From assembly GCA_023262365.1 (NCBI GenBank), contig JALRBF010000212.1, positions 1 to 10,690 on the forward strand: a stretch of 10,690 nt of DNA, written 5' to 3'. How positions within the stretch are numbered: position 1 is the first letter of the stretch; the number at the start of each line of letters is the position of its first letter. The position numbers were made by a program, and so were the translations under genes. This stretch comes from Burkholderiaceae bacterium (lineage in GTDB: Bacteria > Pseudomonadota > Gammaproteobacteria > Burkholderiales > Burkholderiaceae_C). The notes under the pieces are model-generated. The model had not been told where the DNA came from and searched no databases. It worked only from the letters and a program-made list of their open reading frames with translations. Positions 429 through 10,690 of the stretch are shown one piece after another.

Positions 429-1205
429 ATGCGTATTCTCTTAAGCAACGATGACGGTTTTCGAGCCCCCGGCCTGGAGGCGCTGCATCAGGCGTTGCAA
501 GAGGTGGCAACGGTGAAGGTGGTGGCCCCCGAGCACAACAACAGCGCCAAGTCCAACTCGCTCACCCTCACCGCCCCGCTGTACGTGCAGCAAGCGGCCA
601 ATGGCTTCACCTATGTCAACGGCACGCCGGCGGATTGCGTGCACATTGCGCTTACCGGCATGCTGGCCGAACACGAATTGCCCGACCTGGTGGTCTCGGG
701 CATCAACAACGGCGCCAACATGGGCGACGACACCATTTACTCGGGCACCGTGGGCGCAGCCATGGAAGGCTACTTGTTCGGTGTGCCTGCGGTGGCGTTT
801 TCATTGGTGGACAAAGGCTGGGCGCACCTTGATGCAGCGGCCAAGCGTTGCGCCGAGTTGGTGCGTAGCCTGATGCCGCTGACCCATGGCCAGGCGCACA
901 CCGCGCCGTGGTTGCTCAACGTTAACCTGCCCAATCGGCCTTACACCGAACTGGGCGCGTTGCAGTGGACGCGCTTGGGCCGGCGTCATGCTGCCCAACG
1001 CGTGATGACGCAAGACAACCCGCGCGGTGAAACGATGTACTGGATTGGCGCGGCCGGCGAAGCGCGCGACGCCACACCAGGCACCGATTTTCATGCCACG
1101 GCACAGGGTCAGGTCTCCATCACGCCGCTGCAGGTGGATTTGACCGACCACGACCGCCTACCCTACTGGCGGGCGCTGTTGCCGCCCACTGAGAGCCCTC
1201 GTTGA
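429..1205 (+). CDS. surE: 5'/3'-nucleotidase SurE
   Basis: The 258-aa product is the usual length for SurE, a metal-dependent phosphatase of nucleoside 5'- and 3'-monophosphates that also acts on short polyphosphate. The start [10 protein letters not shown] is diagnostic and holds the metal-binding D8 and D9. Other family blocks are visible: the [10 protein letters not shown] region with S39, [10 protein letters not shown] (about 62-71), and [20 protein letters not shown] (about 90-109), which supplies an Asn ligand and the phosphate-binding loop. ATG 429 was chosen because upstream in-frame codons (back to 393) add 12 residues not found in the family and would lie inside the promoter. It is the first gene of surE-pcm-nlpD-rlmD, and its TGA overlaps the likely pcm start. 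The overlap suggests coupled translation and a shared stress-survival role. Confidence 0.96.
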
Positions 1206-1966
1206 GCGCCAACGAGCGGGCACCTTCGCGCTTTCCGGCGCGCGCCGTGCCGCCGGCGGTCATGGCACCCGCCCGCCCTGCCTCACAGGCACGTGCGGCC
1301 CCCACGGCGCCCGCCGGGCTGGGCCTTGATTCGGCGGCCGTGCGCCAGGCCATGGTGCAGCGTTTGGCGAGCCTGCCGGGGATAGAGTCGGTGGTGCTGG
1401 CCGCTTTGGCCGAGGTGCCGCGCCACGCCTTTGTTGACCCTGCCTTGGCCAATCAGGCCTACCAAGACACCAGTTTGCCCATTGGCTTGGGCCAAACCAT
1501 CTCCAAGCCCAGTGTGGTGGCACGCATGCTCTCGCTGCTGCTGCAGGGCCGTGCCGAGCCGCCCGCCAAGGCGCTGGAAATTGGCACCGGGTGCGGCTAT
1601 CAGGCCGCCTTGTTGGCGCGTTTGTGCGGCACCGTGGTCAGTGTGGAGCGTCTCAAGGGCCTGCACGACAAGGCCCGCACCCTGTTGCGCCCGTTGGCGC
1701 TGCGCAACTTGCATTTGGTGTTGGCCGACGGCACCCAAGGCTACCCCAGTTACGCACCCTACGACGTCATCGTGGCCGCAGCGGCTGGGCCCGAGGTGCC
1801 GGCGGCATGGCTCGCGCAACTGGCCCCGGGTGGCACCTTGGTCGCCCCGGTTCAGGTGGCAGTGGGCAAACACGTGTTGCGGCTGGTCAAGCGCACCCGC
1901 CAAGGATGGCAGCAAACCGATTTGGAGGAAGTGCGCTTCGTCCCGCTAAAATTTGGGGTGATATGA
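1202..1966 (+). CDS. pcm: Protein-L-isoaspartate O-methyltransferase
   Basis: This SAM-dependent enzyme methylates L-isoaspartyl residues in damaged cytoplasmic proteins, starting their repair. Visible motifs are QTISKP (98-103, the active-site Ser/Thr loop), the SAM-binding motif [10 protein letters not shown] (126-134), VVSVER (145-150) and the C-terminal RFVPLKFG. The conserved core begins near residue 45. The first ~40 residues are a low-complexity Ala/Pro/Arg extension. The start is uncertain: TTG 1202 overlaps the surE stop and has a GAGAG about 7 nt upstream. ATG 1262 in the same frame would give a 234-aa protein closer to the usual ~210-220 aa, but has no clear Shine-Dalgarno. The stop overlaps the nlpD ATG (ATGA). 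Confidence 0.94.
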
Positions 1967-2874
1967 AACGGTTAACCTTATTGAGTGTGTGCGCCCTGTT
2001 GCTGGCCGGATGCGCTTCTACCTACGATGCGGCGCAGGCCCCGGTCGAAACCCGTAACTTGCCCCGGCGTAGTCTAGAGCCTGCGCCCGAGGGCTACTAC
2101 CGCATTCAGCCAGGCGACACCCTGGTGCGCATTGCCGATTCGTTTCGCCTAAATTGGCGCGAGGTGGCACGCTGGAACCAGCTCAGTGACCCCAATCAAC
2201 TCGAGGCAGGGGCTTTATTACGGGTCACGCCGCCGCCGGCGCCCGCCGTGGCCGCCGCTCAGGCCACACCCGCACCCGCGGCGCAGCGGGTGGTGGTCAA
2301 GCCCGTGGATGGCGCCAGCGGCCCCGCCAAAGCCCAGCCCCTTAAACCCGTGGCGGGTCAAGACGGCGCCGCTGCCACCGAGCCCACGCCAACGGCTGAA
2401 TCCAACGGCTCGCCCACCCTGCCGCGGCCAGCCTCGGCGGTACAAAACGCGCAACCCGAGCCGCCGCCAGGCCCAAGCGAAGAGGCCAGGGCGGCGGCCC
2501 GCGCCGATGGCGTGAATTTTGTCTGGCCAGCCAAGGGGGATGTGGTGGCCACCTTTGATGGCAAAACCAACAAAGGCATCGGCATCGGTGGCGAAGCCGG
2601 CTCGCCGGTGACGGCCGCAGCCGATGGCCGCGTGGTGTATGCCGGCTCGGGCTTGCGTGGCTACGGTAACCTGGTGATTCTCAAGCACAACGACACCCTG
2701 CTGACCGCCTACGCGCACAACCAGGTGTTGCTGGTGAAAGAAGACCAGGAAGTCAAACAAGGCCAAACCATTGCCCAAATGGGGAGCAGCGACGCCGACC
2801 GGGTTAAGCTGCATTTTGAAATACGACGGCTGGGTAAGCCGGTCGATCCATTGGCCTACCTGCCCGCGCCCTAG
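1963..2874 (+). CDS. nlpD: NlpD-type LysM/LytM lipoprotein (amidase activator)
   Basis: The 303-aa product has a lipoprotein signal peptide with lipobox LAGC (lipidated C17). A LysM peptidoglycan-binding domain follows (about 46-89, [15 protein letters not shown]). A Pro/Ala-rich linker covers 90-183, and a LytM/M23 domain covers about 187-300 ([36 protein letters not shown]). NlpD is known as an envelope factor that activates the cell-wall amidase AmiC at the division site. The HxxxD metal site of active M23 peptidases is replaced by NKGIG, so the domain should be non-catalytic, as expected for an activator. ATG 1963 was chosen because it gives the signal peptide at once and overlaps the pcm stop. 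The longer open frame upstream is antisense-free noise inside pcm. rpoS, a common downstream neighbour, is not present. Confidence 0.95.
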
Positions 2875-2875
2875 C

Positions 2876-4315
2876 ATGGCGCGCACCCAAGCCAGCCCCG
2901 ACCCCGAGTGGTTGCGGGTAGACAGCCTCGACTTGGAGGGGCAAGGTGTTGCCACCCGGGCCGACGGCAAGGTGGTTTTTATTGAGGGCGCTTTACCCGG
3001 CGAACGCGTGCAGGTGGTGGTGCACCGACGCAAGGCGCGCTTTGAGCAAGCCTCGGTGGTGGCGGTGCAGCGCCCTGCCACGGCGCGCGTCACCCCCGGG
3101 TGCCCGCACTTTGGGCTGCACCCAGGGGCCTGTGGCGGCTGCAAACTGCAGCACCTACAGGCCGATACCCAAGTGGCGGTTAAGCAGCGCGGCCTCGAGG
3201 ACCAGCTGTGGCACCTGGCCAAGGTCAAACCGCTGCAGGTGCTGCGCCCGATTCATGGCCCCACCTGGGGGTATCGGCACCGGGCGCGATTGTCGGTGCG
3301 CTACGTACCCAAAAAAGACGCGGTGCTTGTGGGATTTCATGAGCGCAAAAGCCGCTACGTGGCCGACATGACCCAGTGTCCGGTGCTGCCACCAGCCGTC
3401 AGCGCCATGCTGCCTGCGCTGCGGCAAGCCCTTTACCGCATGCCCTCGCGGGCACTTTGCCCGCAAATCGAACTTGCCGCCGACGACCACACCACCGCCT
3501 TGGTGTTGCGCCACCTGGAGCCTTTGCTGGGGCAAGACATGGCCGAATTAAAGGCCTTTGCCTTGGCGCAGCAACAACAAGGCCATCGGGTGCAATGGTG
3601 GTTGCAGCCTGGTGGCCCAGCCACCGTGGCGCCGTTGGAACCCAACCCGGATGACGGTTTGGCCTACACGCTGCCAGCTTATGGCATGCATATGCCGTTT
3701 CGACCCACCGATTTCACTCAAGTTAATCCGGCCATTAACCGTGTGCTGGTGCCACGCGCCTTGTCGTGGTTAGCGCTGCAGCCACACGAAACCGCCATTG
3801 ACTGGTTTTGTGGCTTGGGCAACTTCACCTTACCCTTGGCCACGGAGGGCGCGCGGGTAATTGGACTGGAGGGCTCTGCGGCATTGGTGCAGCGCGCGCA
3901 ACACAACGCCGCGGCCGCAGCAGCAACGCTGCGGGCGAGGCCAGAATTTGTGGCCAGGGATTTGTTTACCCTGCAAGCCGCCGATGTGGTCGCTTTGGGC
4001 ACAGCGCACAAGTGGCTGATCGACCCGCCCCGCGAAGGTGCCTTTGCCTTGGTCAAGGCATTGGTTGAGGCTATTGAACTGTCCAGCCAGACGCCAGGGC
4101 AGCCTGCTTGGCAGCCGCCCGAGCGCATCGTTTACGTCAGTTGCAACCCCGCCACGCTGGCGCGAGACGCCGGTCTGCTGGTGCACCGTGCGGGCATGGT
4201 GTGCGAAGCGGCCGGCGTAATTAATATGTTTGCGCACACCGCGCACGTGGAGTGCATGGCGGTGTTTAGCCGCCGCGGCCAAGCCGACCCTGGTGCATCG
4301 CAGGCCGCTGGCTAG
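2876..4315 (+). CDS. rlmD: 23S rRNA (uracil(1939)-C5)-methyltransferase RlmD
   Basis: The 479-aa product is an RNA m5U methyltransferase. An N-terminal TRAM domain (about 10-67, [12 protein letters not shown]) is followed by a 4Fe-4S cluster set at C76, C86, C89 (CGGCKLQ) and C168 (TQCPV). The SAM-binding motif is [14 protein letters not shown] (309-322), LIDPPREG (381-388) follows, and the catalytic Cys is C423 in [11 protein letters not shown]. The cluster pattern separates RlmD from TrmA, which lacks it. RlmD methylates U1939 of 23S rRNA. The ATG lies one base after the nlpD stop and has no Shine-Dalgarno of its own, so translation probably reinitiates from nlpD. A longer reading from 2771 lies inside nlpD and is rejected. 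The TAG stop overlaps that of the convergent yccA-like gene. Confidence 0.95.
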
Positions 4316-5007
4316 TCGCGCTGGCCGCCAAAGACGCTCAGCAGCATCAGCAGATTTTGGAAGATGTTGACGAGATTGAGGTACAACGCCAAGGTCGCGC
4401 TGATGTAGTTGGTTTCTCCACCATCGACAATGCGCTTGAGGTCGAACAACAAAAAGGCGCTAAACAAGCCCACGGCAAGCATGCTGAGCACGAGCATGCC
4501 CGTGGAGCTTGCCACGAACATGTTGATGACCATACCCACCAACAACACGACCAGGCCGACCATGAGCCATTGCTGCATGCCGCTTAGGTCGCGCTTGGTG
4601 GTGGTGGCCACACCGGCCATGACAAAAAACACGCCAGCGGTACCGCCAAAGGCCGTCATGACCAATTCGGCACCGTTGCTAAAGCCCAGCACCATGGCAA
4701 TCAGGCGTGACATCATCAAGCCCATGAAGAAGGTGAAGGCCAGCAACACCCACACGCCAGCGGCGCTGTTTTTGGTCTTTTGAATGGCGAAGATAAAACC
4801 AAAGGCAACCGCCAAAAACAGAATGAAGCTCAGCCCACCACCCATGGCCGCGGTGATGCCCGTGCTCACACCCACCCAGGCGCCCAAGACGGTTGGCAAC
4901 AGACTGATGGCCAACAGCCAGTAGGTGTTGCGCAGCACGCGGTTGCGGTGCACAACCCGAGCGGAGGCGGTGGTGTCGATGGGGGTAGATGGGTTGGAAC
5001 CAATCAT
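4312..5007 (-). CDS. Bax inhibitor-1/YccA family membrane protein
   Basis: The 231-aa product has seven predicted hydrophobic helices (about 29-47, 54-74, 83-108, 116-134, 146-166, 170-189, 205-226), the layout of the BI-1/YccA family. The C-terminal [30 protein letters not shown] block is typical when read in sections: LFDLKRI (187-193), then TNYI, then [11 protein letters not shown] (206-216). E. coli YccA interacts with the FtsH protease, and other members are pH-sensitive ion leak channels. The role here is inferred by family only. ATG 5007 was chosen over an upstream ATG at 5067 because an AAGGA lies about 8 nt before it and the alternative adds 20 hydrophilic residues. It is convergent with rlmD (4-bp overlap) and divergent from the symporter genes. 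Confidence 0.93.
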
Positions 5008-5038
5008 GTCGCAAGTCCTTAAGTTCAAGGTATCTCTT

Positions 5039-5067
5039 AGTTTAGGACATGCGAGGAAAGTTCCCAA
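5039..5067 (-). promoter_or_regulatory. Putative sigma70 promoter of the yccA-like gene
   Basis: On the reverse strand TTGGGA (5062-5067) and TAAACT (5039-5044) are spaced by 17 bp. The predicted transcript start is near 5032, leaving about 25 nt of leader with the AAGGA ribosome binding site. The rest of the 255-bp gap to 5262 shows no convincing promoter for the symporter genes on the plus strand. It does contain a small inverted repeat, TTTCTT (5110-5115) / AAGAAA (5128-5133). Confidence 0.45.
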
Positions 5068-5262
5068 AAGCCCCTACATGTTGCCATGGTTATTGGGGTT
5101 TACCCTATTTTTCTTGGTTGTTCAAATAAGAAACGGGTGCCTTTCAGTTAGCTGTAAGCCGACCGTACGACAGTGCGTAGGGTCTGGACGGGTCGCCGTG
5201 CCTTTGGGTGCGCGAGTTTGGTACCAGGTTCACTCTTGCTTCAACGCTTAAGGAGTCTCCGT

Positions 5263-5514
5263 ATGCAAGACAGCCAAGGCTATTGGTCGGCAACGTTGGC
5301 GCTACTTACCAAAGTCCTCGTGATTTGGTTCATAGTGTCCTACCTCGCCGGTATCTTGTTGGCGCCTGCGCTCAACAACATCATGTTGGGTGGTTACCCG
5401 CTGGGCTTTTGGTTTGCTCAGCAAGGTTCCATCTATGTCTTTGTGATCCTCATTTTTTGGTACGCCAAAAAAATGGGTGAAATCGACCGCCAATTCGGCG
5501 TCGAAGAAGACTAA
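5263..5514 (+). CDS. DUF4212 small subunit of sodium:solute symporter
   Basis: This 83-aa protein has two hydrophobic helices (about 12-33 and 46-67). It carries the pattern of the small companion subunits of VC_2705-type symporters: YW near the N-terminus, then GGYPLGFWFAQQGSIYVFV (43-61) and an FWYAKKM end to helix 2. Such proteins are nearly always encoded just before the large SSS permease and are thought to form a complex with it in the inner membrane. The biochemical role is unproven. ATG 5263 has a strong TAAGGAG at 5249-5255, 7 nt upstream, which excludes the longer reading from 5173. The stop codon TAA is itself part of the next gene's Shine-Dalgarno. Confidence 0.92.
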   Translation: MQDSQGYWSATLALLTKVLVIWFIVSYLAGILLAPALNNIMLGGYPLGFWFAQQGSIYVFVILIFWYAKKMGEIDRQFGVEED

Positions 5515-5525
5515 GGAGCCACACC

Positions 5526-7328
5526 ATGGATTTACAAACAGTTACCTATTTGATCGTTGGCGCCTCCTTTGCGCTGTACATCGGTATCGCGATTTGGGCG
5601 CGTGCCGGGAGCACGGGTGAGTTCTACGTGGCAGGGCGCGGTGTTAACCCCGTGATGAACGGGGCGGCCACGGCAGCTGACTGGATGTCTGCGGCGTCAT
5701 TCATTTCAATGGCCGGTCTGATTTCTGGCTTTGGCTACGGTGGCACCGTGTTCTTGATGGGCTGGACTGGCGGCTACGTGTTGTTGGCGATGCTGCTGGC
5801 CCCGTACTTGCGCAAGTTTGGCAAGTTCACGGTACCGGAATTTATCGGTGATCGCTTCTACTCACCGACGGCTCGTACGGTGGCGGTGATTTGCTTGTTG
5901 GTGGCGTCGATCACGTACATCATTGGGCAGATGACTGGTGTGGGTATTGCCTTTGCCCGCTTTCTTGAAGTGGACAAGGACACCGGCATTTACGTGGGTA
6001 TGGCCATTGTGTTTACCTACGCGGTGTTTGGTGGCATGAAGGGCATCACTTACACCCAGGTGGCGCAATACTGTGTGCTGATTTTGGCCTACACCATTCC
6101 GGCTATCTTCATCTCGTTGAACCTCACCGGCAACCCGTTGCCTCAATTGGGTCTGGGCTCGGATTTTGCGGGTTCGGGTGTCTCACTGCTGGCAAAACTG
6201 GACCAAGTGGTCACGGACTTGGGCTTCAGCCAGTACACCACCTCGCCCCGTTTGAGCATGCTCAACACCTTCAGCTACACGGTGTCGTTGATGATCGGCA
6301 CGGCGGGCTTGCCCCACGTGATCGTGCGCTTCTTTACCGTGCCCAAAGTGGCTGATGCACGCCGCTCGGCTGGCTGGGCGTTGTTCTTCATTGCCATTTT
6401 GTATACCACCGCACCTGCGGTAGGCGCCATGGCCAAGTTGAACCTGCACGCCACGGTGAACACCGCGGTCAAGGGTGGCGGTGACTTGTATGCCACCGAG
6501 AGCAGCATCTTGGCTAGCGAGCGTCCGGATTGGATGAAGCGTTGGGAAGCCACTGGATTGCTGAAATTCACCGACAAAAACGGTGACGGTCGCATCCAGT
6601 ACTACAACGACAAGACCAAGAACGAAGCGGTGCTTGCCAAGGCCAATGCGGCTGGCTGGAAGGGCAACGAGCTCAGCGTCAACAACGACATCATCGTGTT
6701 GGCCAACCCAGAGATTGCCATGCTGCCCAACTGGGTGATTGCGCTGGTAGCTGCAGGGGGATTGGCTGCCGCGTTGTCAACCGCTGCGGGCTTGCTGATG
6801 GCGATTGCCTCAGCCATCTCGCATGACTTGATCAAAGGGGTGATCAACCCTGAGATTGACGAAAAGAGCGAGTTGCTGGCTGGCAAGATTGCCATGGCGG
6901 TGGCCATTTTTGTGGCAGGTTATTTGGGGTTGAATCCGCCAGGATTCGCCGCAGGTACCGTGGCACTGGCCTTTGGTATTGCCGCCTCGTCGCTGTTCCC
7001 CGCGATCATGTTGGGTATCTTCTCCAAGACCATGAATACGCGTGGTGCGGTTTGGGGAATGATCGCCGGCTTGGCGGTGACCCTGTTCTACGTGTTTGCG
7101 CACAAGGGTATCTTCTTCATCAAGGGCACCGAGTTTGTGCACATGGTGGGTGGTGAAAACGGCTGGTTTGGGATTGAGCCGAACGCCATTGGTACCTTGG
7201 GTGCGATCGTGAACTTTGTGGTGGCGTTCTTGGTGGCCAAGACCGCCGCGCCGGCGCCTCAGCATATTCAGGACTTGGTTGAGTCGATTCGTGTGCCCAA
7301 GGGCGCAGGGGCGGCCACTGGTCACTGA
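5526..7328 (+). CDS. Sodium:solute symporter, VC_2705/ActP-like large subunit
   Basis: The 600-aa protein is an SSS-family permease (LeuT fold, inner membrane) that couples Na+ or another cation to uptake of a small organic acid. Family blocks include FYVAGRGVNPVMNGAATAAD (33-52), GYGGTVFLMGW (70-80), the SSS signature GLPHVIVRFFTVP (261-273) and the Na+-site helix AALSTAAGLLMA (415-426). About 12-13 hydrophobic segments can be counted. A soluble insert of about 95 residues (305-400) separates two helices and contains an EF-hand-like loop, DKNGDGRIQYYN (350-361). Pairing with a DUF4212 subunit points to the VC_2705 subgroup rather than true ActP. Acetate, lactate or another monocarboxylate are plausible substrates, but the sequence does not decide. 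The ribosome binding site AAGGAG (5513-5518) overlaps the preceding stop codon. An intrinsic terminator follows. Confidence 0.93.
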   Translation: MDLQTVTYLIVGASFALYIGIAIWARAGSTGEFYVAGRGVNPVMNGAATAADWMSAASFISMAGLISGFGYGGTVFLMGWTGGYVLLAMLLAPYLRKFGKFTVPEFIGDRFYSPTARTVAVICLLVASITYIIGQMTGVGIAFARFLEVDKDTGIYVGMAIVFTYAVFGGMKGITYTQVAQYCVLILAYTIPAIFISLNLTGNPLPQLGLGSDFAGSGVSLLAKLDQVVTDLGFSQYTTSPRLSMLNTFSYTVSLMIGTAGLPHVIVRFFTVPKVADARRSAGWALFFIAILYTTAPAVGAMAKLNLHATVNTAVKGGGDLYATESSILASERPDWMKRWEATGLLKFTDKNGDGRIQYYNDKTKNEAVLAKANAAGWKGNELSVNNDIIVLANPEIAMLPNWVIALVAAGGLAAALSTAAGLLMAIASAISHDLIKGVINPEIDEKSELLAGKIAMAVAIFVAGYLGLNPPGFAAGTVALAFGIAASSLFPAIMLGIFSKTMNTRGAVWGMIAGLAVTLFYVFAHKGIFFIKGTEFVHMVGGENGWFGIEPNAIGTLGAIVNFVVAFLVAKTAAPAPQHIQDLVESIRVPKGAGAATGH

Positions 7329-7374
7329 TGCACCACCGGGGCGAGACTGGCGTGTTGTCCCGGTAAACTGAACA

Positions 7375-7409
7375 CCCGCCGGCGGGATGCTGCCGGCGGG
7401 TTTTTTTTT
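7375..7409 (+). terminator. Intrinsic terminator after the symporter genes
   Basis: A perfect 9-bp GC-rich stem, CCCGCCGGC (7375-7383) and GCCGGCGGG (7392-7400), with an 8-nt loop is followed at once by nine T residues (7401-7409). It lies 46 bp after the symporter stop and should end that transcript. It also lies directly before the ribosome binding site of the next gene. Confidence 0.93.
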
Positions 7410-7421
7410 GGGAGGTTGCGC

Positions 7422-7781
7422 GTGCACGCTTATGTGTTCATTGTGCTGAACTGGATTTTGCTGCTGGGCCTGGTGGTCTTGGGGGTGGTGTGGCTGCGCG
7501 AGGCGTGGCGTATTGCCATTCAACGCGATTTTTCGCGCGTGGCGCTCAAACGCGGTGAACCACCGCCTGACCCGGCGCGGGTGGCGCCTTATGCTGCGGT
7601 GGTTAACCTCCTCGGCGGCACTGTGGCCGTCTCCACGGTGCTTTGGGTGGTGCTGGACCAACCGCGCTACGAGGCTTGGAATGCCTTGGGCGGCATCACC
7701 ATATGGCTTAAGCTGTTTGCCAACTTTATTTTGGCGCGTCACGCCCACGCCGGGCAGGCCCGCGGCAAGCGCGCTGGTTAG
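7422..7781 (+). CDS. Hypothetical small membrane protein
   Basis: I do not recognise this 119-aa protein. It shows three hydrophobic stretches (about 4-26, 57-78, 88-105). A charged loop, LREAWRIAIQRDFSRVALKR (25-44), lies between the first two, followed by a Pro-rich PPPDPAR, and the tail is basic (ARHAHAGQARGKRAG). By the positive-inside rule the loop and the tail would be cytoplasmic; with three helices both cannot be, so one stretch may not span. GTG 7422 is preferred over TTG 7416 because GGAGG (7411-7415) lies 6 nt before it. It overlaps convergent ppsR by 4 bp (TTAG). A terminator sits 12 bp upstream of the start, so its promoter is unclear. Confidence 0.75.
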   Translation: MHAYVFIVLNWILLLGLVVLGVVWLREAWRIAIQRDFSRVALKRGEPPPDPARVAPYAAVVNLLGGTVAVSTVLWVVLDQPRYEAWNALGGITIWLKLFANFILARHAHAGQARGKRAG

Positions 7782-8599
7782 TAGTTCAGGTGTTGCGGCA
7801 ACACCTGCTGCAAGATGGTGGTGGCGATCTCTTCAATGGATTTGATGGTTGAGGACAACCACGCAATGCCTTCGCGGCGCATCATGGCCTCGGCCTCAGA
7901 GACCTCGTATTGGCAATTGGAGAGGCTGGCATAGCGCGAGTTGGGCCGGCGCTCGTGGCGGATGTCGGCCAAGCGGCTAGGGTCGATGGTAAGCCCAAAG
8001 AGTTTGTGCCGGTAGGGCAGCAGGTCTTGGGGCAGGCGTTGACGCGCAAAGTCTTCGGGAATCAGTGGGTAGTTGGAGGCTTTGATGCCGTATTGCATGG
8101 CTAAGTAAAGGGTGGTGGGGGTTTTGCCGCTTCGGCTCACGCCCACCAGTATCACCTCGGCGCTGGCAAGGTCGCGCGCGCTTTGGCCATCATCATGTGC
8201 CAGGGCAAAATTGATGGCCTCGATGCGGTTGTGGTACGCCTGGGTTTGTGCGGTTTGGCTAAAGCGGCCTACGCGGTGGTTGCTTTTGAGGTCAAAGGCT
8301 TGCTCCAGCGGCGCAACAAAGGTGCCAAACAAGTCCATGAGTAAACCTTGGCAGCTGGCCTCGATGATGGACAGGACTTCTTGGTCCACCACGGTGCTAA
8401 AAACAATGGGCGGCTTGCCCTCGCGTGCAGCCGCCTGGTTGATTTGCTCGACCGCCTGGTGCGCTTTGGCTGGGCTGTCCACAAACGGCAGCCTGACTTG
8501 GCGTGGAGTAACAGCGAACTGGGCCAAAATGGCGTGACCAAAGGTCTCTGCGGTGATGCCGGTGCCATCGGAGAGAAAAAAGACAGAGCGATTGGGCAT
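7778..8599 (-). CDS. ppsR: PEP synthase regulatory protein PpsR (kinase/pyrophosphorylase)
   Basis: The 273-aa product matches the DUF299/PSRP family. These proteins switch PEP synthase off by ADP-dependent phosphorylation of a Thr near its catalytic His, and on again by Pi-dependent removal of that phosphate. The start FFLSDGTGITAETFGHAIL (7-25) is typical of the family. The nucleotide-binding P-loop is GVSRSGKT (153-160), followed by PTTLYLAMQYGIKASNYPL and KLFGLTIDP (199-207). It is divergent from ppsA, its expected target, across 132 bp. The ribosome binding site is weak: AAAGG lies about 12 nt before the ATG. The last codons contain a perfect inverted repeat, and the stop overlaps the convergent membrane-protein gene. 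Confidence 0.95.
   Translation of the reverse strand: MPNRSVFFLSDGTGITAETFGHAILAQFAVTPRQVRLPFVDSPAKAHQAVEQINQAAAREGKPPIVFSTVVDQEVLSIIEASCQGLLMDLFGTFVAPLEQAFDLKSNHRVGRFSQTAQTQAYHNRIEAINFALAHDDGQSARDLASAEVILVGVSRSGKTPTTLYLAMQYGIKASNYPLIPEDFARQRLPQDLLPYRHKLFGLTIDPSRLADIRHERRPNSRYASLSNCQYEVSEAEAMMRREGIAWLSSTIKSIEEIATTILQQVLPQHLNY
7787..7807. repeat. Perfect 10-bp inverted repeat at the 3' end of ppsR
   Basis: CAGGTGTTGC (7787-7796) and GCAACACCTG (7798-7807) are exact reverse complements around a single central base. The hairpin would have a 9-bp stem and a 3-nt loop. It encodes the QVLPQHL end of PpsR and lies 6 bp past the stop of the convergent gene. No T-run follows on either strand, so it is not a classical terminator, but it could protect or define both 3' ends. 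Confidence 0.6.
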
Positions 8600-8731: not shown

Positions 8732-10576
8732 ATGCCTGAGCGCTTTGCAGCGACCGATTTGGTCGTTCCTTTTGAGTTGCTGCGTAACACCGATGTGGAA
8801 TGGGTGGGCGGGAAAAACGCCAGCCTGGGGGAGATGATCTCGCAACTTCCTGGCGACGTGCGCGTGCCCACGGGCTTTGCCACCACGGCCCACGCCTTTC
8901 GGCTGTTCCTTGCTCACGAGGGCTTAGATCGGCGTATCAGCCAAGCGTTGGCGGCGCTGGAGGTCGACGACGTGCAGGCGCTGGCGCGAACCGGCGCAAC
9001 CATTCGCGCGTGGGTACAAGCGCAACCCCTGCCCGAGCCGCTGGAGCAAGCCATTCGCCAGGCCTTTGCCGCGCTCGACGGTGGTGCCAACGCCAGTTTT
9101 GCGGTGCGCTCGTCGGCCACTGCCGAGGACTTACCCGATGCCTCGTTTGCCGGGCAGCAAGAAACCTTTCTTAATGTGCGTGGCGTAGACGCCACACTAG
9201 AGAAAATCAAAGAGGTATTTGCCTCGCTTTTTAACGACCGTGCCATCAGTTATCGCGTGCACAAGGGCTTTGCCCACGACGCCGTGGCCTTGTCCGCTGG
9301 CGTGCAGCGCATGGTGCGCAGTGACACCGGCGCGGCCGGGGTGATGTTTACGCTGGATACCGAGTCGGGCTTTAGAGATGTGGTTTTTATTACCTCGAGT
9401 TACGGACTTGGTGAGATGGTGGTCCAAGGCGCCGTGAACCCCGACGAGTTTTACGTCCACAAGCCCATGCTGCAGCAAGGCCACGAGGCCATTGTGCGGC
9501 GCAGCCTCGGATCTAAGTTGCAAGCCATGGTGTTTGCCAGCGAGCAAGCGCGCCAAGAAAGCGGTAAGTTGGTGCAGGTGTGCGATGTGGAGGTGGCGCA
9601 ACGCAATCGCTACAGCCTAACCGACCAAGAGGTGCACGAACTGGCTCGGGTGGCGCTGCGCATCGAGGCGCATTACGGGCGCCCCATGGACATCGAGTGG
9701 GGCAAAGACGGCGAAGACGGCCAGATGTACATTCTTCAGGCTCGTCCCGAGACGGTGAAAAGCCAATCGGGAGCAGTGGCTGAACAGCGGTTTGCCCTGA
9801 AGGGCAAAGGGGAGGTGTTGGCTGCGGGACGTGCGATTGGACAAAAGGTGGGCACGGGCCCCGTGCGCTTGGTGCAAAGCCCGGCTGAAATGGACCGGGT
9901 ACAACCCGGCGACGTGTTGGTAACAGACATGACCGACCCCAACTGGGAGCCGGTGATGAAGCGTGCCAGCGCCATCGTGACCAATCGCGGTGGGCGCACC
10001 TGCCACGCAGCCATCATTGCACGCGAGTTGGGAATTCCGGCGGTGGTGGGGTGTCACGACGCCACCGAGTCGTTGCGCGAAGGTATGCTGGTGACGGTGA
10101 GTTGCGCCGAGGGTGATACCGGGCACGTGTACGAGGGGCTGTTGGAGGTGGAGGTCTCTGAGGTGCCGCGTGGGGCGATGCCCGAGCTTGACGTAAAAAT
10201 CATGATGAACGTGGGCAACCCCCAGCTGGCTTTTGATTTTTGCCAAATGCCCAATGCCGGCGTGGGTTTGGCGCGCCTTGAATTCGTCATCAACAACAAC
10301 ATTGGCGTGCACCCTAAGGCGATATTGGATTACCCCAACGTGGACGCCGATTTGAAGCTCGCGGTGGAGTCGGTAGCGCGCGGGCATGTGTCGCCGCGCG
10401 CGTTTTATGTGGACAAGATTACGGAAGGCGTGGCCACCATTGCCGCGGCGTTTTGGCCCAAGCCGGTGATTGTTCGGCTCTCGGATTTTAAGAGTAACGA
10501 GTACCGCAAATTAATTGGAGGCAGCCGCTACGAGCCCGAGGAAGAAAATCCCATGCTGGGCTTTCGCGGCGCGGCG
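8732..10576 (+). CDS. ppsA: Phosphoenolpyruvate synthase, 3' part missing
   Basis: PpsA makes phosphoenolpyruvate from pyruvate and ATP for gluconeogenesis. Present are the N-terminal ATP-binding domain ([13 protein letters not shown], then [20 protein letters not shown]) and the swivelling phosphohistidine domain [20 protein letters not shown] with catalytic H425. The PpsR target is T423. The C-terminal PEP/pyruvate domain starts at about 488 ([21 protein letters not shown]). The start has GGAG 6 nt upstream. Homology runs cleanly to [10 protein letters not shown] (residues 606-615) and then stops: the expected RY continuation is not found in any plus-strand frame, though this frame stays open to 10690. 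About 180 residues of the usual ~800, including the C-terminal catalytic Cys region, are missing. The cause is either disruption of the gene or an assembly chimera. Confidence 0.9.
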
Positions 10577-10580
10577 GTCG
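10570..10580. other. Junction between ppsA and foreign sequence
   Basis: PpsA homology on the plus strand ends and a phage-like minus-strand reading begins within this GC-only stretch (CGCGGCGG followed by TCGAC). Because both sides read well up to the same few bases, the join is sharp. It may lie in a short GC-rich shared sequence. It could be an insertion, a deletion end or a false assembly join. Confidence 0.6.
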
Positions 10581-10690
10581 ACCTGTTTGACCCGGTACAT
10601 GCAGCGCGGACGGCCATACTGGGCGTCCACCCGATCGACGTACACCTCCCACGGGAACACGCGCTCGAACCGCACCCGGTTGTTTTCGTT
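10577..10690 (-). CDS. Phage portal-like protein fragment (both ends missing)
   Basis: The last 114 bp read on the reverse strand as 38 open codons with convincing protein character. They begin [11 protein letters not shown], continue [18 protein letters not shown] and end CMYRVKQVD. The W/E, hydrophobic-D, D-A-x-Y-G-x-P-R and final V-D pattern resembles a conserved stretch of portal (head-tail connector) proteins of tailed phages, where it is followed by a variable residue and D/V-L. I recognise this only as a likeness from memory. The frame continues past the junction into antisense ppsA and stops at 10511. Its 5' end would lie beyond the window. A different non-phage protein is possible. 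Confidence 0.45.

Follow-up and report, generated by a model that had tools for sequence, protein, structure and literature searches.

Two kinds of artificial join are the closest described counterparts of the locus considered here. Inverted chimeras formed during amplification are reported in PMC5372508 to overlap by short stretches, most often of 7 nt, and by 3-13 nt in over 95% of cases; these figures refer to inverted chimeras only, which were mostly confined to 5 kb of a single genome. In the simulated metagenome sets of PMC9661791, translocation misassemblies between genomes are given as the commonest error. The join that we describe, between a bacterial gene for phosphoenolpyruvate (PEP) synthase and a piece of phage DNA, resembles the amplification chimeras in its short overlap and inverted piece (amplification of the present sample is not assumed), but unlike them it links bacterial to phage DNA and not mainly parts of one genome. 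With the translocation misassemblies, which are usually diagnosed by read mapping, it shares the abrupt meeting of two unrelated sequences. We conclude that the right end of the contig is very likely a chimera of bacterial and phage DNA and not a phage insertion.

The window, by which we mean the whole 10,690-bp stretch of DNA that was analysed, is the entire contig C83, one of 376 contigs in a 1.9 Mb draft genome (G000) with a completeness of 90.67% and a contamination of 2.84% according to the search tool's figures. At the left end the contig cuts an alcohol-dehydrogenase-like gene (Table 1), as is expected of a fragmented draft. From 429 to 8599 it is ordinary by Pfam, with SurE, PCMT, a LysM/M23 peptidase, an RNA (uracil-5-)-methyltransferase, a Bax1-I family membrane protein, DUF4212 with a sodium:solute symporter, and a PpsR-type kinase/pyrophosphorylase; a small frame at 7416-7778 has no match in Pfam. 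The gene ppsR is divergent from ppsA, with which the genuine bacterial sequence appears to end.

The ppsA gene starts at an ATG (8732) and reads as a normal member of its family through the GFRGAA motif at 10559-10576. Its domains come in the expected order, PPDK_N (397.6 bits) and then PEP-utilizers (99.2 bits) in Pfam, so that the ATP-binding domain and the mobile phosphohistidine domain are both present. The third domain, PEP-utilizers_C, is covered only to position 113 of the 293 in the profile, about its first third, leaving the C-terminal PEP-binding domain incomplete; we attribute this to the contig break and not to the protein itself. The last residue that belongs to the family is A615 (codon 10574-10576). 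The 20 genomes searched comprise G000 and 19 others; among them G003 has the closest ppsA, with 92% protein identity, and the DNA identity between the two genes ends at 10575/10576. Past this point the G003 protein reads RYLSADFAPAFAMEC and continues for about 180 residues to a normal C-terminus. Judged by that gene, about 180 codons are missing from the 3' end on C83; the window copy is thus like other PEP synthases over residues 1-615, and differs from them in lacking the C-terminal residues where the contig breaks off.

What follows A615 is not what follows it elsewhere. In every record read, namely 120 listed homologues (of 8000 scored), 80 loci on genome contigs (kept out of 590 confirmed) and nine loci fetched from relatives, the break is followed by R-Y; among the 120 listed homologues, 113 have AARY at this place and seven have ATRY. 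These 209 are records and not independent genes, as the sets may share genes, and the nine fetched loci leave out matches in G013, G015, G016, G004, G009 and G002 and a second one in G011. The nearest named loci in the genome-contig search belong to Burkholderiales. Two of the 80 genome loci (L048 and L097) show a short frame after the motif start, of 50 and 113 residues, and both still have R-Y. One protein with 98% query coverage (P0123) was considered as a possible homologue bearing the tail and was set aside, its own sequence going on as RYLSADF. Normal PpsA thus does not continue in the open plus-strand frame past the break. This agrees with the original prediction, in which PpsA followed its family to A615 and then left it; a homologue continuing after GFRGAA with the reading of the tail, which would have spoken against such a break, was found in none of the 209 records. 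We give virtually no weight to the idea that the plus frame, which is open up to the contig end, encodes the genuine C-terminal part of a PpsA that has diverged, given its absence from all these records, the partial match to PEP-utilizers_C, and the fact that the same bases score as a phage portal on the other strand.

This second signal was examined with the 38 residues read from the minus strand of the 114-bp tail. Against a profile of 120 portal homologues they score 45.0 bits over positions 152-188, in a collinear alignment, compared with 2.7 for the best of 2000 shuffles. Of the 120 listed homologues they match 116 at E<1e-3, with E referring to those 120 proteins as the search set, and the alignments start at residues 111-178 of the homologues (median 149.5). 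Among the matches listed, the highest identity is to the portal of the phage locus L024 (IMGVR_UViG_3300045739_000107), 73% over 30 residues; the top-scoring one is P0067, with 64% over 33 residues. At the DNA level 79 of the 114 positions are identical to L024, the next best plus-strand placement in that locus giving 55/114. Viral contigs were also searched with a 50-residue reading, consisting of the tail and 11 residues antisense to ppsA, which returned six loci: L024 was the best (69% over residues 5-40) and four others showed 50% identity over residues 5-32. The sixth (L029), a 1488-residue protein of a different kind aligned over residues 23-49, was taken as a chance match. A search with a 26-base piece gave one record, which is the phage contig of L024 itself; an exact 24-base piece of the tail and a hand-made degenerate pattern of the portal motif matched none of the viral contigs. 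A wider search of the viral contigs with the portal alignment yielded 447 relatives, of which 80 were kept.

The predicted resemblance of the last 114 bp to phage portal proteins was thus confirmed by the profile score, the listed homologues and the DNA identity to L024. A direct comparison with portal families, also proposed earlier, gave a divided outcome: the similarity emerged through the profile and the relatives, but the tail piece alone (39 residues) matched no Pfam and no PHROG family. Against annotated phages the tail gave chance-level matches only (best E 4 in tblastn and 0.1 in blastn). Altogether, the reading of the minus-strand tail as real portal-like coding sequence, which comes from sequence comparison, is well supported. 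Its 38 residues fall in line with profile positions 152-188 of the portal proteins (PHROG 332, with relatives in PF16510, PF12236, PF23899 or PF05133), and the window differs from a phage genome in what surrounds them. There is no full-length portal gene between terminase and capsid genes here, only 114 bp, or about 6% of the gene, standing alone before the contig ends.

The assignment of the tail depends on that of L024, a 652-aa gene of an uncultivated phage, located between the genes for the large terminase (phrog_2, E 4e-41) and the major capsid protein (phrog_14242, E 6.4e-7). The L024 protein has a modest match to phrog_332, the head-tail adaptor/connector family (28.6 bits, E 9.3e-7), and no Pfam match at E 0.01; a relative, L025, matches SPP1_portal below the cut-off of that family. 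With the L024 protein as query, 438 relatives were found in the database, of which 120 were listed. Many of these listed matches are marked PF23899, PF16510 (which we take to be the P22-type portal) or PF12236 (presumably the head-tail connector), and a few PF05133, the SPP1 portal. We therefore base the name portal on the gene order, the modest phrog_332 match and the Pfam marks on the relatives. In a tblastn search at 1e-5 the L024 portal (4524-6479) had no match among 50,697 annotated phage records, although it has 438 relatives in the protein set, which indicates that this group of portals is poorly represented among named phages.

Table 1. Features of contig C83 that bear on its two ends (G003 is the relative with the closest ppsA, L024 the related phage portal).
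Feature	Coordinates	Strand	Basis
ADH_N, alcohol-dehydrogenase-like gene, cut by the left contig end	1-339		Pfam
ppsR (PEP synthase regulatory kinase/pyrophosphorylase), complete	7781..8599	-	PF03618, 276 bits, profile 1-256 of 256
ppsA (phosphoenolpyruvate synthase), first 615 codons	8732..10576	+	PPDK_N, PEP-utilizers, partial PEP-utilizers_C
Junction, ppsA/portal overlap of ~4-7 bp	10570..10576		DNA comparison with G003 and L024
Phage portal (head-tail connector) gene fragment, ~38 codons	10577..10690	-	Portal profile positions 152-188

The two similarities end within the same few bases, with the abrupt loss that is looked for in a chimera. Positions 10572-10575 match both G003 and L024, and with codon wobble the shared stretch may comprise up to about 7 bases. 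On the ppsA side the phage similarity is gone by 10571, with only 12 of 36 positions identical to L024 over 10576-10541. The two pieces are joined in opposite senses, and a pattern spanning the join has no match in the viral contigs. There is one such junction only, and it lies 114 bp from the end of the contig, a distance shorter than a common short read (a general figure, not one from this dataset). Ordinary errors in a k-mer graph need more overlap than 4-7 bp, so the join must have been carried by a molecule, a read or a step of gap closing.

On the chromosome, the sequence beyond ppsA seems to resume elsewhere in the draft. In G003 the next gene, exonuclease-like as we judge from its sequence, begins one base past the ppsA stop. 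Its counterpart in G000 lies on contig C357, which starts inside the gene: residues 230-586 align to C357 69-1148 with 64% identity. By arithmetic on the G003 coordinates, the gap between the last true base of C83 and the first base of C357 is about 1.2 kb, and the resumption of the downstream gene after such a gap is the pattern of an ordinary assembly gap. G003 shows the order of ppsA followed by this gene, and G005 and G001 show it in part; no such gene was seen in the ~1 kb after ppsA in the six remaining fetched relatives. Bases 1-68 of C357 (L197) have an open frame but no alignment to the neighbour protein of G003; they may represent a linker of variable sequence, or a second contig end of poor quality. 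In G002 and G009, which are fragmented genomes of the same genus, pieces of ppsA start no more than a few bases into a contig.

The remaining 3' part of ppsA was sought elsewhere in the genome, as had been suggested, and was not found in the G000 draft. The only candidate, a PEP-binding domain on contig C9, is 36% identical to the expected part of ppsA and was rejected as the lost half; together with C101, C9 reads as what we take to be PTS enzyme I. The loss of the PpsA active site is a loss from C83 only.

In the original prediction, one possible outcome was that a prophage or a phage rearrangement had removed the active site of PEP synthase. The direct joining of genuine portal sequence to ppsA and the failure to find the ppsA 3' part in the draft would both fit a prophage or phage-derived element inserted in, or replacing, that part of the gene, but the surroundings do not bear this out. 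The phage sequence amounts to only 114 bp at a contig end, the tail was found in none of the 19 relatives, and a portal gene is not the usual site at which temperate phages join the chromosome. Elsewhere in G000 the tail DNA has matches at chance level only (next best E 0.2), its protein reading matches only itself, and a 12-row portal alignment finds this piece and no other portal. Neither phrog_2 nor PF03237 detects a large terminase in G000; in 14 control genomes they match in 11 and 6, respectively. Searches for these two families and for the portal thus revealed no further phage gene beside the join or in the draft, which, as G000 is 91% complete, is weak evidence that can only support the rest. 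The downstream gene at the start of C357 is, moreover, what a plain gap would give. On these grounds we regard a phage insertion as extremely improbable, and the proposed removal of the active site is not supported.

The junction itself leaves room for another reading, in which illegitimate recombination between host and phage took place in a minority of cells and the rare but real product was taken up by the assembler. The short G+C-rich overlap suits joining by microhomology as well as it suits a library chimera; however, no observation requires such an event and none links such a phage to this host, and we consider it highly improbable. That a microhomology-joined phage-host recombinant disrupts PEP synthase in part of the population, with PpsR intact, is likewise very unlikely. 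The alternative outcome in the original prediction, a chimeric contig end formed through a short GC-rich stretch, is the one that our results favour: the join stands at the contig end, the overlap is ~4-7 bp, and the downstream gene resumes on C357.

A contig-end artefact, without biological novelty, is most likely. We propose that the genuine bacterial sequence stops inside ppsA at 10575/10576. The last 114 bp would derive from a tailed phage, namely from its portal gene, with phage DNA presumably present in the sample from which the bacterial DNA came; they would have been attached in reverse orientation at a few G+C-rich bases common to both. The most likely origin of the join is a chimeric read or library molecule, or the extension of the contig end by the assembler; it may have been a bench step or an assembly step, and we commit to neither. 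In the cell, where this join is probably absent, ppsA is most likely intact up to its stop codon, with the exonuclease-like gene coming next.

The significance of the finding is for annotation only. C83 should not be used for linking the phage to this host, and neither a pseudogene nor a phage insertion nor a fusion protein should be recorded for ppsA here; the gene is to be annotated as partial at a contig end, with the last 114 bp set aside.
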